Of a stretch of DNA of 43,845 nucleotides, positions 34,006 to 38,724 are shown one piece after another. Both the position numbers and the translations under genes were made by a program. The notes beneath the pieces were generated by a model. That model saw only the letters and a list, made by a program, of their open reading frames with translations. It searched no databases and was not told the origin of the DNA. Origin of the DNA: a virus; the IMG/VR virus record IMGVR_UViG_3300028284_000016, positions 1-43,845 of that record; one strand, given 5' to 3'. Position 1 is the stretch's first letter. Each line of letters starts with the position of its first letter.

Positions 34006-34546
34006 AACCTAGCTCTTTTAATTTTTCGATAACATGATTCACATCACCGTTTTTACATCTTATTGCTATTCCTCCTTTTGCAGCCCACTCATCTATATTA
34101 GACGGTTTGTCGTCTATAAGAATAGAATTCTCGTTTGCATACCTTTGCTTTGCTTTTGAATATGCAAAGATGACTTTTGGTTTAGGGTTAACATTATTCT
34201 TAACCCAAAGGTTTTTCCCGAGTCTAGAGTTGTTATGTCTAGAGGGAGAAGTAAGTAAATCAGGTTGATATGGTTTAATAAAATCCCAAAGCTGTTGTCC
34301 AGCTGGCATCCAATCCATTCCTACCCAAAATTTAACTCCTACTGTATTATCTATTAACTCCCAGAATGCTGGTGTTCCTTTTTCTTTTTCGTATACTTGG
34401 GGATTCATCCCCGTATAGTGTTCAAATCTACTTTCAAAATCTGTTAGTACTCCATCCATATCACAATAGATCTTATACGGAGGTACTTCTTTTTTCTCTG
34501 CTAAAGGGTAAGCCTCTAGCAATTCTACTAAACTTTTTTGTTTCAT
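33998..34546 (-). CDS. HAD-superfamily phosphatase / 5'(3')-deoxyribonucleotidase-like
   Basis: A 182-residue protein. HAD motif I is YCDMDGVLTDF (D29, D31), motif II is LLTSPSRH, and the motif III/IV region is ENSILIDDKPSNIDEWAAKGGIAI. The layout matches the small 5'(3')-deoxyribonucleotidase-like HADs that dephosphorylate (deoxy)nucleotides. An N-terminal extension, MKQKSLVELLEAYPLAEKKE, precedes the fold and has an (I/L)-x-E site (LLE|A at 9-11), so the enzyme might be packaged and trimmed like other leader-bearing proteins here. It overlaps the nucleotidyltransferase gene by four bases. Confidence 0.75.
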   Translation of the reverse strand: MKQKSLVELLEAYPLAEKKEVPPYKIYCDMDGVLTDFESRFEHYTGMNPQVYEKEKGTPAFWELIDNTVGVKFWVGMDWMPAGQQLWDFIKPYQPDLLTSPSRHNNSRLGKNLWVKNNVNPKPKVIFAYSKAKQRYANENSILIDDKPSNIDEWAAKGGIAIRCKNGDVNHVIEKLKELGYE

Positions 34547-36399
34547 AACCTTTGTTTAATGCCTAACTTTGGAAGGCGTTTATTCCACAATATACGAATT
34601 TTTTTACGGTTCTCCAACTCTACGCCAGCTTTTTCAAAGTAATCTTCTACTACATCAGCGAAAGGAGTCCTAGATTTTTTAGCTTTAAAATACATTCCTT
34701 GTATCATGGCATCAACTTCTTTCGGGAGTTGATAATATTCATCTTTATCCATTACACCCATATCGATCATACCTCTTACTAGAGCATCATCTTCTATATA
34801 CTTACCGGGTTTAACGTTTTCTCCGTCTTGAGTTAAGTGCTCTAACTCATGTCTTACTACATCCTTAAGGTCAAATGATACTTCTTGCCAGTCGGGGTTC
34901 TTTTGTATTTTAAATTTAACGTTTAGCATTGGTTGAATTTCATCTCCGTCATCATCGAAACCAGCGTTTGCTCCTCCGTCTACACTATATGTGTCTTCTG
35001 TAAACTCTACTACTCCTAAGAAGTCAAATTCAAACTGTGAAGAAGGAATATCTACTTCTGGATCTTCTGGGTTACCTACTCGGAATTCAAACTCTCCTCC
35101 TTTGTCTCCTCTATCGTGGATGTCTATAAAAGTTTCTAGTGCTAATCCAGATAACTTATTTGCTAATTTGTCGTATTTACCTTCTGCCATAACCGTTTCA
35201 TTTGTTTCCTCTTTCTTCATTGCTTTTCCTGCAGCTTCTGCATCCTTATGAGCTTTCGAATTACCGTGAGATGGTTTCTCTCCTCTTTTCTTTTTAGCAT
35301 TTATATTGGCCCATAGTCCAGGTTTCTTTGCTTCAGAGGTGTTCTTATAACTGTCTTCCCAGTTTCTAAATGTTATGTTACCAACTAGGTATGCTTCTTT
35401 CTCTAATTCTAATAGAGCGTCGTCAGCTGTTGTGTCTGATGTTTGAATGTTTCCTAATCTATTCTCTATGTTTTGAATATGGTGAACCATTTCATGAGTA
35501 AAAGATCTACATATGTCTTTAGGGTGTCTACCGCTTACATATAGTACTATTTCTTTACTGTTTGGATCGTAATGAGCTGTCTTTCCGAAGAAATCTTTAG
35601 CATTCTCTTCATCATATCTAACTTTAACTTCAGGTAGAGGTTGAATATTCATATCCTGGTCTAACATATACTCTAATATAGATCCAATATACTTAGTATA
35701 TTCAGGTTTACTATTAAGGGCAGATTCTTTCTCTATTTCTGGAGTTGTATCTTCTGCAAAATACTCTGATAGAAATCCATTTATGTTATTACTTATTACT
35801 TCGGCAACTATCTTTTCTTTTAAATTTGATAGAATACCTAATATTTGGTCTTTAGTTAGTTCCTTAGGGAAAAAATCAACAATAGTGTCTAAGTTACCTG
35901 AGAGTATACTCTTTCTAAAGTTTGTTGCTCTAACTCCGGAATCATTAGCTGTTGTTACTGCTAATCCTTTCACATTAGGAGTATTTTTAAATGTAGTTAC
36001 CCTCCTTAGGTCTACAAAATCTTCTTCACCTCTTAAGCCTGTTACTGCTACAAACTCTTCATCAGGGTTTGCTTTAGCCCAATCTTTAGCAGCAAACATA
36101 GGGTTCTTTTGACCGTCTATAATTTCTACATTAGATAGGTGTTGAGCATATATCTCCCATATCTTAGTAGCTTCTTGTTTATCTATTCCGTTTCTTTCTC
36201 CTCCTCCTACAAATATTAGTACTTTATCTATAGATGGTTTACCTTCTGGTCTACCTTTTAATAGAGATGTTGCTTTTTCTTTGAAATCTGTTATATCATA
36301 AACTGTTCCATTGTAGGAACCATCTAATAAAGATTTTACTACATTAAAATGTCCTCTATGAGGTGGTTTATATGCTCCGGGGTATAGTGCTGTTGCCAT
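34543..36399 (-). CDS. Fusion: NMNAT-like nucleotidyltransferase + two HExxH metallopeptidase-like domains
   Basis: A 618-residue protein. Residues 1-~185 form a nucleotidyltransferase of the NMNAT/cytidylyltransferase type: LYPGAYKPPHRGHFNVV with H-x-G-H at 14-17, and an ATP-site TTANDSGVRATNFRKSIL analogous to the S/T-x-x-x-[RK] motif. Around 300 the sequence RSFTHEMVHHIQNIE has HExxH (302-306) with downstream LELEKEAYLVGN as a likely third ligand. A second HExxH occurs in VVRHELEHLTQDG (517-521), followed by LPKEVDAMIQGM. A Lys-rich linker (~355-400) separates the two. The fusion suggests nucleotide/NAD metabolism combined with proteolysis. It overlaps neighbours by 1-4 bases. Confidence 0.72.
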   Translation of the reverse strand: MATALYPGAYKPPHRGHFNVVKSLLDGSYNGTVYDITDFKEKATSLLKGRPEGKPSIDKVLIFVGGGERNGIDKQEATKIWEIYAQHLSNVEIIDGQKNPMFAAKDWAKANPDEEFVAVTGLRGEEDFVDLRRVTTFKNTPNVKGLAVTTANDSGVRATNFRKSILSGNLDTIVDFFPKELTKDQILGILSNLKEKIVAEVISNNINGFLSEYFAEDTTPEIEKESALNSKPEYTKYIGSILEYMLDQDMNIQPLPEVKVRYDEENAKDFFGKTAHYDPNSKEIVLYVSGRHPKDICRSFTHEMVHHIQNIENRLGNIQTSDTTADDALLELEKEAYLVGNITFRNWEDSYKNTSEAKKPGLWANINAKKKRGEKPSHGNSKAHKDAEAAGKAMKKEETNETVMAEGKYDKLANKLSGLALETFIDIHDRGDKGGEFEFRVGNPEDPEVDIPSSQFEFDFLGVVEFTEDTYSVDGGANAGFDDDGDEIQPMLNVKFKIQKNPDWQEVSFDLKDVVRHELEHLTQDGENVKPGKYIEDDALVRGMIDMGVMDKDEYYQLPKEVDAMIQGMYFKAKKSRTPFADVVEDYFEKAGVELENRKKIRILWNKRLPKLGIKQRL

Positions 36400-37331
36400 T
36401 ATGCTAAAAAGGATTGTAAGTCTCTATCTATTTCTTGAGGAGTTGAATGAGCTAACTTTTCTTGAAATTTAGGATCGTATAACATATCTACTATATTATC
36501 CATAACTTCAACATGTTTTCCATCATTCTTCTCTTTTCTATCTCTATACTTCGTTATTGCGTCTTTTAGTTTATCAGCTCCAGGTCCTGCTCCGTTTTTC
36601 TGATAAGCTTTTATAAAGGCATTCTTTATAGCTTTATCCTCAGATCTATTGTTAGTATCCCAATTAATACCTGTTGTAGCTTTTTTAAACTCTTGCTCTT
36701 CTTCATCATTCATTTCAACTGGAGAGAAAAATGTTGAACCTCCTACTCCATGCTTAGTATTATATTTCTGCAAGTAATCTTTTAGTCCTTGAGTTCCGTT
36801 TTTTGCTGCTGTATCAAATCCTTCGACTTCTTTTGCATATTTACCTCCTCTATCACTAACGTGAACGGAAAGATTACCGCTTAGCATTTTATCATACTCT
36901 CCAATCAATTGATAGACATTACGCCAGGTAGAGAATACTGCTGGTCCGGGTATACTTCTATCTGATCTACTAAAGTTAGATATGTAAGAAATCATAGGAT
37001 GAGTATACACCATTACCATATATACTTTATACCCTGCATTTAAGATATCTTTTACCTTAGAAGCATTAGAAGCTGTCGTATCCCAAACGAAACTAGTTTT
37101 TTCTTCGAGGGCTGCTGCTACGTCTTTGTTGGTTTGAGCTGCTGCTGGTCCTAGTTTGTTGTGGTATGGATGATTGGGATCCTCTACGTATTTGTCTGGG
37201 TTGAACTGTTCTAGGCTGTCTAGGGACAATTGGTTTAATAGGTGTGACTTGCCTGACCCTGCTCCCCCTGCCATTACCACTGCTTTCGGGGCGTTGGTAG
37301 ACTCTAGGATTAGTTCTGATAGTTTTATCAT
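36399..37331 (-). CDS. Zeta-toxin-like P-loop kinase with capsid-targeting-like leader
   Basis: A 310-residue protein. The leader MIKLSELILEST fits the shared M-(I)-K-L-x-x-L-I-L-E pattern with a candidate cut at ILE|S (E10). It is followed by the strand APKAVVMAGGAGSGKS, with Walker A at 22-29. Zeta-toxin/PNK-type landmarks are FNPDKYVEDPNHPYHN, FVWDTTASN and the lid region SRSDRSIPGPAVFSTWRNV. Zeta toxins phosphorylate UDP-sugars; related phage kinases act on nucleic acid or nucleotides, so the substrate is open. The C-terminal half is helical and charged. The first 79 codons overlap the 3' end of the lipoprotein gene by 239 bases in another frame. Confidence 0.72.
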   Translation of the reverse strand: MIKLSELILESTNAPKAVVMAGGAGSGKSHLLNQLSLDSLEQFNPDKYVEDPNHPYHNKLGPAAAQTNKDVAAALEEKTSFVWDTTASNASKVKDILNAGYKVYMVMVYTHPMISYISNFSRSDRSIPGPAVFSTWRNVYQLIGEYDKMLSGNLSVHVSDRGGKYAKEVEGFDTAAKNGTQGLKDYLQKYNTKHGVGGSTFFSPVEMNDEEEQEFKKATTGINWDTNNRSEDKAIKNAFIKAYQKNGAGPGADKLKDAITKYRDRKEKNDGKHVEVMDNIVDMLYDPKFQEKLAHSTPQEIDRDLQSFLA

Positions 37332-37938
37332 TGTTGTTAGTATTTACTGTTCTTCTCTTTTTTACCTTTACTTCTTTTGTTGATTGAATCATAGCAGCGT
37401 GTGCTCTACCATTTCTTGTAGTTGTAGTTCCTCTTCTACCGCTATGATAAGCTACGTTAGTACCTCTATATCTATTATAATTAGGACCGTAGTAACCGTT
37501 GCTCCAGTTATTCCAACCGTTAAAACTCCATCCATGATTATTCCAACCATAGTACATATTGTATCCCCATCTATCATACCCAAATGGTGACCATCTATGA
37601 GGAGAACCCCAAGAATTCCAACCTGTATAACCCCAAACCCAATCATTCCACATTTGACTTCTACTGTAGTAGGGGTTATAGTAATAATACCTATTACCTA
37701 GTAACCTATTGTTCCAATCAAATGAACTAGGTTGACTTATAGCATACTGAGCATAATCATATCTAAAGTTAAAATCAGTTCTAAGTAAATTACGTAATTG
37801 AAATTCATTTTTAATTACATTAATGTTTACATCAGAGCCTTCTAGGACGTATTCTGGTTCATGATTAATAGTGCTCAATTGAAATGAAGCACAACCTGTT
37901 AGCACTGTTGATAGTAATACAATAAGTAATTTTTTCAT
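37093..37938 (-). CDS. Phage-encoded lipoprotein, W/Y/N-rich, with overprinted basic tail
   Basis: A 281-residue protein. A type II signal peptide MKKLLIVLLSTVLTGC has a lipobox L-T-G-C (13-16), so C16 should be lipidated. Residues ~60-165 are very rich in Trp, Tyr, Asn and Gly (for example GWNSWGSPHRWSPFGYDRWG), as in some Bacteroidota cell-envelope proteins. From about residue 203 the frame overlaps the kinase gene and becomes a biased R/S/Q/P tail. Phage lipoproteins can block superinfection or alter the envelope, which is a possible role. A CTATTTAT element lies 41 bases upstream of the ATG. Confidence 0.68.
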   Translation of the reverse strand: MKKLLIVLLSTVLTGCASFQLSTINHEPEYVLEGSDVNINVIKNEFQLRNLLRTDFNFRYDYAQYAISQPSSFDWNNRLLGNRYYYYNPYYSRSQMWNDWVWGYTGWNSWGSPHRWSPFGYDRWGYNMYYGWNNHGWSFNGWNNWSNGYYGPNYNRYRGTNVAYHSGRRGTTTTRNGRAHAAMIQSTKEVKVKKRRTVNTNNNDKTIRTNPRVYQRPESSGNGRGSRVRQVTPIKPIVPRQPRTVQPRQIRRGSQSSIPQQTRTSSSSNQQRRSSSPRRKN

Positions 37939-37941
37939 ATC

Positions 37942-38724
37942 TTATAATTTTAATGATGTAGGGTAGCTATTATAAATAGGTTCCGTATTCGGGTTTTCTA
38001 ATGAATACAGTCTGTATATCATTTGAAACAATTCGAAGTTTTGGTCTATATCGTCAATCTGTATCAGTTTCCAGCCTTTACCCTGTATCTTTCCTTTTTG
38101 TTTTGAAGGTCCTCGACATGAAGCTTTAAGCCAAATAATACCTGTTCTATCTATCTTCTGACCTTTTGATTCTTCCATAGCTTTAGCATATGAAGCTAAT
38201 TGTAAATCAAATGACTTATGTACTGAGTTAGAAGTTTTGATGTCTAATAGCCAGATCTCTCCATCAATCTTACATACGATATCTGCTGTACCAGCATATT
38301 TGTGTTCATCTGACCATACAAATTCTTCTGCGGAAATCAGCTCAGGTTTATGAGTTGTCCAGAAATCATGGAACTTAAGTATCATCTCCCATACTATTTG
38401 AGAGTACTTAGCATTACCGTAATCATCCATCCAGGTTACCTCGTTACCTAGTATCAATTGCTCTGCAGCTTCATGAACTTGTGTACCTTCTTTACCTGCT
38501 CTTCTCATTATAAGATTGGAGTTATGCCCAACGTCTTTTAACCAATTCTCAAAAAACTTATTCTTGGGCATATACTGGAGTATAGTGGTTACGGACGGGT
38601 AGTATACTCCTTCTCCTCTCTTATAGACTCTTCTATCTAAGAAATTAATCTGTTTTAAATCAGGATTAAAGTCTAATCTATTCTTTGCATTCTCTTTAAG
38701 AATGTTCATACCTTGTTTTATCAT
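37942..38724 (-). CDS. RecB/Cas4-like PD-(D/E)XK exonuclease
   Basis: A 260-residue protein with the RecB-family motifs in order: GTQVHEAAEQL (H84), SAEEFVW (E133/E134), YAGTADIVCKIDGEIWLLDIKTS (D148 and the D161-x-K163 active-site pair) and the Q-rich motif LQLASYAKAM. This is a single-domain PD-(D/E)XK nuclease likely to act in DNA recombination, host DNA degradation or end processing during replication. It overlaps the primase stop region by four bases, consistent with a replication mini-operon. An alternative start (Met6) would shorten it by five residues. Confidence 0.82.
   Translation of the reverse strand: MIKQGMNILKENAKNRLDFNPDLKQINFLDRRVYKRGEGVYYPSVTTILQYMPKNKFFENWLKDVGHNSNLIMRRAGKEGTQVHEAAEQLILGNEVTWMDDYGNAKYSQIVWEMILKFHDFWTTHKPELISAEEFVWSDEHKYAGTADIVCKIDGEIWLLDIKTSNSVHKSFDLQLASYAKAMEESKGQKIDRTGIIWLKASCRGPSKQKGKIQGKGWKLIQIDDIDQNFELFQMIYRLYSLENPNTEPIYNSYPTSLKL
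37972..37979 (-). promoter_or_regulatory. CTATTTAT-family element inside the nuclease 3' end
   Basis: The coding strand reads AACCTATTTATAATAGC, 41 bases upstream of the lipoprotein ATG. It lies within the last codons of the RecB-like gene (encoding E-P-I-Y-N-S), so it has been accommodated inside coding sequence. Confidence 0.4.

Follow-up and report, generated by a model that had tools for sequence, protein, structure and literature searches.

In a T4-like phage of marine Bacteroidetes, the first 80 codons of a P-loop kinase gene also encode, in the +2 frame, the C-terminal ~78 residues of a predicted lipoprotein; this explanation, with the translation, export and history of the tail set out below, is very probably correct as a whole. 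Comparison with related sequences shows that the overlap is genuine, ancient and under selection. It lies in the window, i. e. the whole stretch of 43,845 nucleotides that was analysed (IMG/VR virus record IMGVR_UViG_3300028284_000016).

The overlap and its conservation

The genes concerned follow each other on the minus strand in the order exonuclease (37942..38724; phrog_298, E 3e-40), lipoprotein (37093..37938), P-loop kinase (36399..37331) and a gene for a 618-aa product (34543..36399), the positional equivalent of the NMN adenylyltransferase of Flavobacterium phage immuto. The first and the last of these were the kinase neighbours examined. The 618-aa product has no Pfam match; it contains HEMVHH, recognised by eye, which we take to be a metalloprotease-like motif.

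The lipoprotein and kinase genes share 239 nt (37093..37331, minus strand), over which both frames are open, as claimed in a first-pass annotation of the window. Its view that this length is exceptional also stands, since the remaining same-strand overlaps in the ORF list of the window measure 1-32 nt. Of the lipoprotein gene, the shared stretch covers the codons of residues 204-281 (78 in the tail), the stop codon and 2 nt of the codon ahead of residue 204. The stop (TAG, 37093..37095) is reached 235 nt past the kinase ATG (37331), 1 nt ahead of the codon for kinase residue F81 in the conserved strand FVWDTT, and this spacing recurs in 71 of the 109 overlapped contexts described below. A lipoprotein codon consists of position 3 of one kinase codon and positions 1 and 2 of the next. 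Thus a silent change in the kinase will usually replace a residue of the lipoprotein. The GC content is 46.9% in the overlap, 34.0% in the remaining kinase gene and 33.9% in the lipoprotein gene ahead of the overlap.

The kinase (310 aa) is of the zeta-toxin-like P-loop type, judging by its Walker A motif and zeta-type core. The Walker A motif GGAGSGKS (residues 22-29; 37245..37268, minus strand), assigned from the sequence and the kinase alignment, lies inside the overlap, as had been noted in the first pass. Strand 1 lies there too, and both are conserved between phages. The match to Pfam PF06414 (Zeta_toxin) starts at residue 11 (E 2.4e-10, 40.6 bits, cutoff 22.3). The AlphaFold model has a pLDDT of 85 and its Foldseek matches are P-loop kinases, the ranking also including tRNA(Sec) and polynucleotide kinases. 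A PDB sequence search with the kinase profile gave weak matches only (PezT, E 0.057).

The lipoprotein (281 aa) carries a type II signal peptide with a lipobox (LTGC; 37891..37938, minus strand), and its Cys16, which is invariant in a 17-sequence alignment, is predicted to be lipidated. A Trp/Tyr/Asn-rich body and a basic low-complexity tail follow. The lipoprotein had no Pfam match above a curated cut-off, its PHROG matches were weak and confined to the N-terminal end, and its structure model is of low confidence (pLDDT 47). The tail, which consists to ~80% of R/S/P/Q/G/T/N, is basic, Cys-free and predicted to be disordered; the overlap accounts for the last quarter or more of the lipoprotein.

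Relatives were collected by scanning viral contigs; the queries were the two proteins, an alignment of kinases and two distant kinases. Each scan kept its best 80 matches, which favours close relatives. The 250 sequences, including the window, were reduced to 246 usable ones by dropping four in which a usable kinase start or any kinase match was missing (L210, L105, L106, L121), and the 246 form 118 distinct contexts, again including the window. L099, with a broken kinase frame, had been removed beforehand; on this contig the frame is broken after ~96 residues, which a sequencing error or a real pseudogene may explain. Lipoprotein loci found later, including a relative in a Schleiferiaceae MAG, are outside the 118-context counts. 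Clustering at 96% kinase identity gave 88 representatives, 81 of them overlapped. A lipobox-like signal peptide (by lipobox pattern) is present in all 81, in lipoproteins of 188-338 aa.

Among the matches listed, 109 of the 118 contexts have an overlap of 203-242 nt, one has a premature stop and eight have no overlap. The kinase queries, which do not select for the presence of the lipoprotein, reached 110 contexts among the matches listed: 102 overlapped, 1 truncated and 7 without overlap. Kinases of overlapped contexts are 50-73% identical to that of the window. Because the same overlap is found in contexts from many different metagenome samples, an assembly artefact, a frameshift for instance, as the first-pass annotation had considered, is excluded. 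When the homologous loci were compared for an earlier lipoprotein stop, the 109 overlapped and the one truncated context yielded only that of L242, at 158 nt, behind which the frame is open again to the usual end. This stop could be a recent nonsense change or an error.

Selection on the hidden frame

To what extent an open +2 frame is expected was calculated exactly, with the kinase protein fixed and synonymous codons drawn from the non-overlapped part of the gene itself. For the window 8.9 stops are expected and P(open) is 7e-7. Thus, given the kinase protein and its codon usage, chance is excluded for the window overlap. Over the 81 overlapped representatives P(open) has a geometric mean of 4e-7 and a maximum of 1.4e-4. 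Across the remaining kinase gene the +2 frame holds 11.8 stops per 78 codons.

A lipoprotein stop might have been lost by accident, so that a useless tail is translated and selection only removes harmful tails, i. e. those with cysteines or aromatics. This would fit a tail whose exact sequence varies and whose constraint is on composition, an overlap length that itself varies, and the premature stop in L242. Yet new stops would then be harmless, and although 6-12 are expected per representative, none of the 81 has any. Furthermore, lipoproteins of the same family that are encoded without overlap have a similar tail. We therefore regard a useless tail as unlikely.

Ten such loci were found, three beside the kinase and seven without such a kinase found beside them (L105, L106, L116, L121, L253, L254, L255). 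The 78-residue C-termini of all ten lack cysteine, have a net charge of +7 to +22 and are rich in N, R, S, T and P; L105, L106, L116 and L254 share the C-terminus RRKN with the window. The L1 distance in composition to these separate tails is 0.57 for the overlapped tails and 0.71 for a null in which the kinase protein is kept and stops are forbidden. Compared with the overlapped tails, the separate ones have more Asn and less Gln. Since basic, Cys-free tails persist in relatives without overlap, a long, basic and disordered tail seems to be a requirement of this lipoprotein family, one that the codons of the kinase gene would satisfy at the kinase locus.

The stop-free null also bears on the first-pass description of the tail as R/S/Q/P-rich and of low complexity, the usual look of an overprinted extension. 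Overprinting is not a full account of this composition: R, S, P, Q, G, T and N make up 81% of the observed residues and 58% under the null, and the ten separate tails are of the same basic, Cys-free kind. Cys, Phe and Lys are predicted at 5.3, 5.1 and 8.5%, respectively, and observed at 0, 0.3 and 2.0%; Pro, Gln, Gly, Asn and Val lie above the null. Among 6,179 tail residues there is no cysteine where 331 are expected. This could be explained if the protein leaves the cytoplasm.

Kinase codons in which T and C are synonymous at the third position (T3) were classed by the lipoprotein residue that T would make. In the overlap T is never used where it would make a stop (0/840) or Cys (0/193, at sites spanning 32 alignment columns). 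It is used in 36/39 sites where it makes Tyr (and C gives His), in 46/59 for Trp, 444/1022 for Ser and 17/56 for Phe. Outside the overlap of the same genes the T3 fraction is 0.84 in stop, 0.83 in Cys, 0.85 in Tyr, 0.61 in Trp and 0.75 in Ser contexts, and 61-87% over all classes. Fourfold sites preceding GC or GT have T in 0/592 cases in the overlap vs 358/932 in the remaining gene. Kinases without overlap keep T in 15 of 21 Cys contexts. Hence, as far as codon choice can tell, selection acts on the amino acids of the tail, beyond the avoidance of stops.

The open frame could also be a by-product of an RNA structure or a base-composition constraint that depletes T3, with a tail that has no function of its own. 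GC3 is indeed raised in the overlap (0.466 in codons 1-70 vs 0.207 in the rest of 108 overlapped kinases), and predicted folding, calculated for every second of the 81 representatives, is strongest near +60 to +100 of the kinase. However, T3 is wholly absent only in the stop and Cys contexts, while in the Tyr and Trp contexts its use equals or exceeds that outside the overlap, and such context-specific exclusion cannot be explained by general T avoidance or RNA structure. The bias is lost in the eight overlap-free kinases (GC3 0.22 vs 0.244), and an Rfam search of the region gave no family above threshold (the sub-threshold SAM match, E 0.87, lies inside the exonuclease gene). A by-product is thus very improbable.

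For the selected tail, substitutions by codon position, a check suggested in the first-pass annotation, gave a weak signal only. Over 38 disjoint pairs, differences per site at position 3 are modestly reduced, from 0.235 in the remaining gene to 0.188 in the overlap; fourfold differences are lower in the overlap in every identity bin, sometimes slightly, and there are slightly more differences at positions 1 and 2 there. This indicates a constraint on the composition of the tail rather than on its sequence.

Kinase start and history of the overlap

The 30 nt ahead of the kinase ATG (37332..37361, minus strand), within the lipoprotein ORF, form an A-rich, unstructured initiation region without Shine-Dalgarno sequence, according to composition and folding. 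In the 81 overlapped representatives the A content is 57% at -30..-1 vs 38% at -230..-31; A stands at -12 in 57, at -13 in 66 and at -3 in 38 of them (G at -3 in 36). Folding energies are lowest around the kinase start, where the predicted structure is weakest (every second of the 81 representatives). The region matches the initiation determinants published for Flavobacterium; in the accessible text of that study, A at -3 is a positive determinant in Flavobacterium johnsoniae (PMC6847099). In the window, 3 of 37 genes have an SD-like word upstream. The sequences show that the kinase gene has retained an ATG of its own.

Since long overlaps are often annotation errors, we also considered that the true kinase might begin downstream of the lipoprotein stop, with no coding overlap at all, for which no support was found and which the position of strand 1 and Walker A inside the overlap, the Zeta_toxin match from residue 11 and the use of the same ATG in overlap-free relatives make practically negligible.

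We infer that the tail is translated and exported and that the kinase starts internally. Ribosomes translating the lipoprotein would pass the kinase start and continue for the further 235 nt, and other ribosomes would enter at the SD-less kinase ATG, as is usual in Bacteroidetes. The lipoprotein would then be exported and lipidated, which would place the tail outside the cytoplasm, and the kinase would act in the cytoplasm. For the tail we favour a role in periplasmic anchoring or binding, probably of an electrostatic kind and within the envelope.

The overlap-free contexts are of different kinds. Four lack a lipoprotein, the first long ORF upstream being the exonuclease: L020 and L021, which form one cluster, L057 and L190. 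In L028, L117 and L224 a lipoprotein with its own tail ends at or just ahead of the kinase ATG. L116 has no overlap and only a distant kinase (28% identical); a length and completeness filter kept it out of the kinase tree, a quick ML tree of the C-terminal part with 88 rows, a midpoint root and moderate support. On this tree the six overlap-free rows are separate tips amid overlapped ones (six changes; the starred branches alone require at least four for the overlapped group). Such scattered single tips suggest repeated loss, which may have occurred together with the lipoprotein or by replacement with an allele carrying its own tail. With moderate support and a midpoint root, we infer a single origin of the overlap rather than read it from the tree; it would have arisen once, prior to the radiation of the sampled group. 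A long overlap is missing from the outgroup kinases of Pelagibacter phage HTVC008M and Methylophilales phage Melnitz-3, whose +2 frame contains stops. Thus the kinase frame is probably the older one, and the overlap a derived state. In Melnitz-3 (L294:1314-2127), a small annotated ORF overlaps the start of the distant kinase by 53 nt.

In the six overlap-free representatives the hidden frame has acquired 4-11 internal stops and 1-7 Cys codons. L190, L224 and L117 have a partly raised GC3 (0.33-0.39) and fewer stops and Cys codons than L020, L028 and L057 (GC3 0.14-0.17), as would be expected if they had lost the overlap more recently. The overprint recognised in the first pass thus amounts to genuine dual coding, with a frame that is open beyond chance, selected in its residues, conserved, and decaying after loss.

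Known overlapping genes, host and lipoprotein bodies

Overprinting as such is known. As far as our literature searches go, this pair of genes, the selection for a Cys-free product and the replicated losses have not been described; a search for a phage lipoprotein-kinase overlap or similar found none alike. Long overlaps in large dsDNA phages are rare and hard to prove.

The present case resembles Rz/Rz1 of phage lambda in that a second frame of some other gene specifies an outer-membrane lipoprotein of the phage. In lambda, according to the accessible part of PMC5295617, the whole of Rz1 lies within the gene of its functional partner, and sensitive parts of either protein face silent parts of the other. 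Here, unlike Rz/Rz1, only the tail of the lipoprotein overlaps, and it does so over the Walker A motif. An Rz/Rz1-type spanin was rejected, as the partner is a P-loop kinase-like protein and the overlap is limited to the lipoprotein C-terminus.

The tail resembles the de novo frames of viruses, as far as the accessible text of a review describes them, in being a disorder-prone, basic, low-hydrophobic +2 product over an older gene (PMC8227390). The +2 de novo proteins covered there are enriched in cysteine, whereas cysteine is absent here, which fits an exported product; and here a tail was replaced or extended instead of a whole protein being created. According to the visible part of a survey, +2 overlaps of dsDNA viruses are almost all 1 or 4 nt long and overlapping regions of DNA viruses have a median of 15.6 nt (PMC8903798). 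The present genes are same-strand +2 neighbours like those surveyed, but their shared stretch measures 203-242 nt and is conserved across a group of phages. In Pseudomonas phage Fc02, olg1/olg2 are likewise alternative-frame phage genes with separate starts, apparently on one transcript; from what is accessible of that report, they differ in encoding unrelated proteins, in their role in superinfection exclusion and in having no lipoprotein tail over a kinase (PMC9936078).

The accessible text of the review names as an open question whether the unusual composition of overlapping genes is what causes the overlap or what results from it (PMC8227390). The ~80 divergent replicates, the sister lineages that lost the overlap and the relatives with separate tails make this question directly testable. 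That the composition bias is gone or fading after overlap loss points to a consequence. Cys exclusion in addition provides a sign, available from sequence alone, of where the product of a hidden frame goes.

The nearest relative of this T4-like phage is immuto (gp23 66%, terminase 78% identical), and the viruses with the overlap probably infect marine flavobacteria. The lipoprotein relative in the Schleiferiaceae MAG was counted toward this reading. At the corresponding position in immuto both the lipoprotein and the kinase are absent; the immuto gene at the kinase position was compared as a possible homologue and rejected. L253 and L255 are lipoprotein relatives in contigs of the Schleiferiaceae MAG and of a "Woesearchaeota" MAG, the latter probably a misbinned phage contig.

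The lipoprotein bodies fall into 34 of a long and 37 of a short type (10 of the 81 were unclassified and dropped), with at least nine changes on the kinase tree, counted with no shuffle control. L007 and L012, whose kinases are 85% identical, have a short and a long body, respectively. These switches suggest an exchange of bodies on a fixed tail. Tentatively, the 5' end of the kinase gene could thus be a shared tail cassette: bodies swapped upstream by recombination would inherit one exported tail, which would link a conserved kinase to an envelope protein that varies, and the absence of cysteine would be a general signature of exported overlapping frames. The bodies of L202 and L204 had been another candidate for a swap; an internal deletion fits them better (94 of 144 aligned body positions identical).
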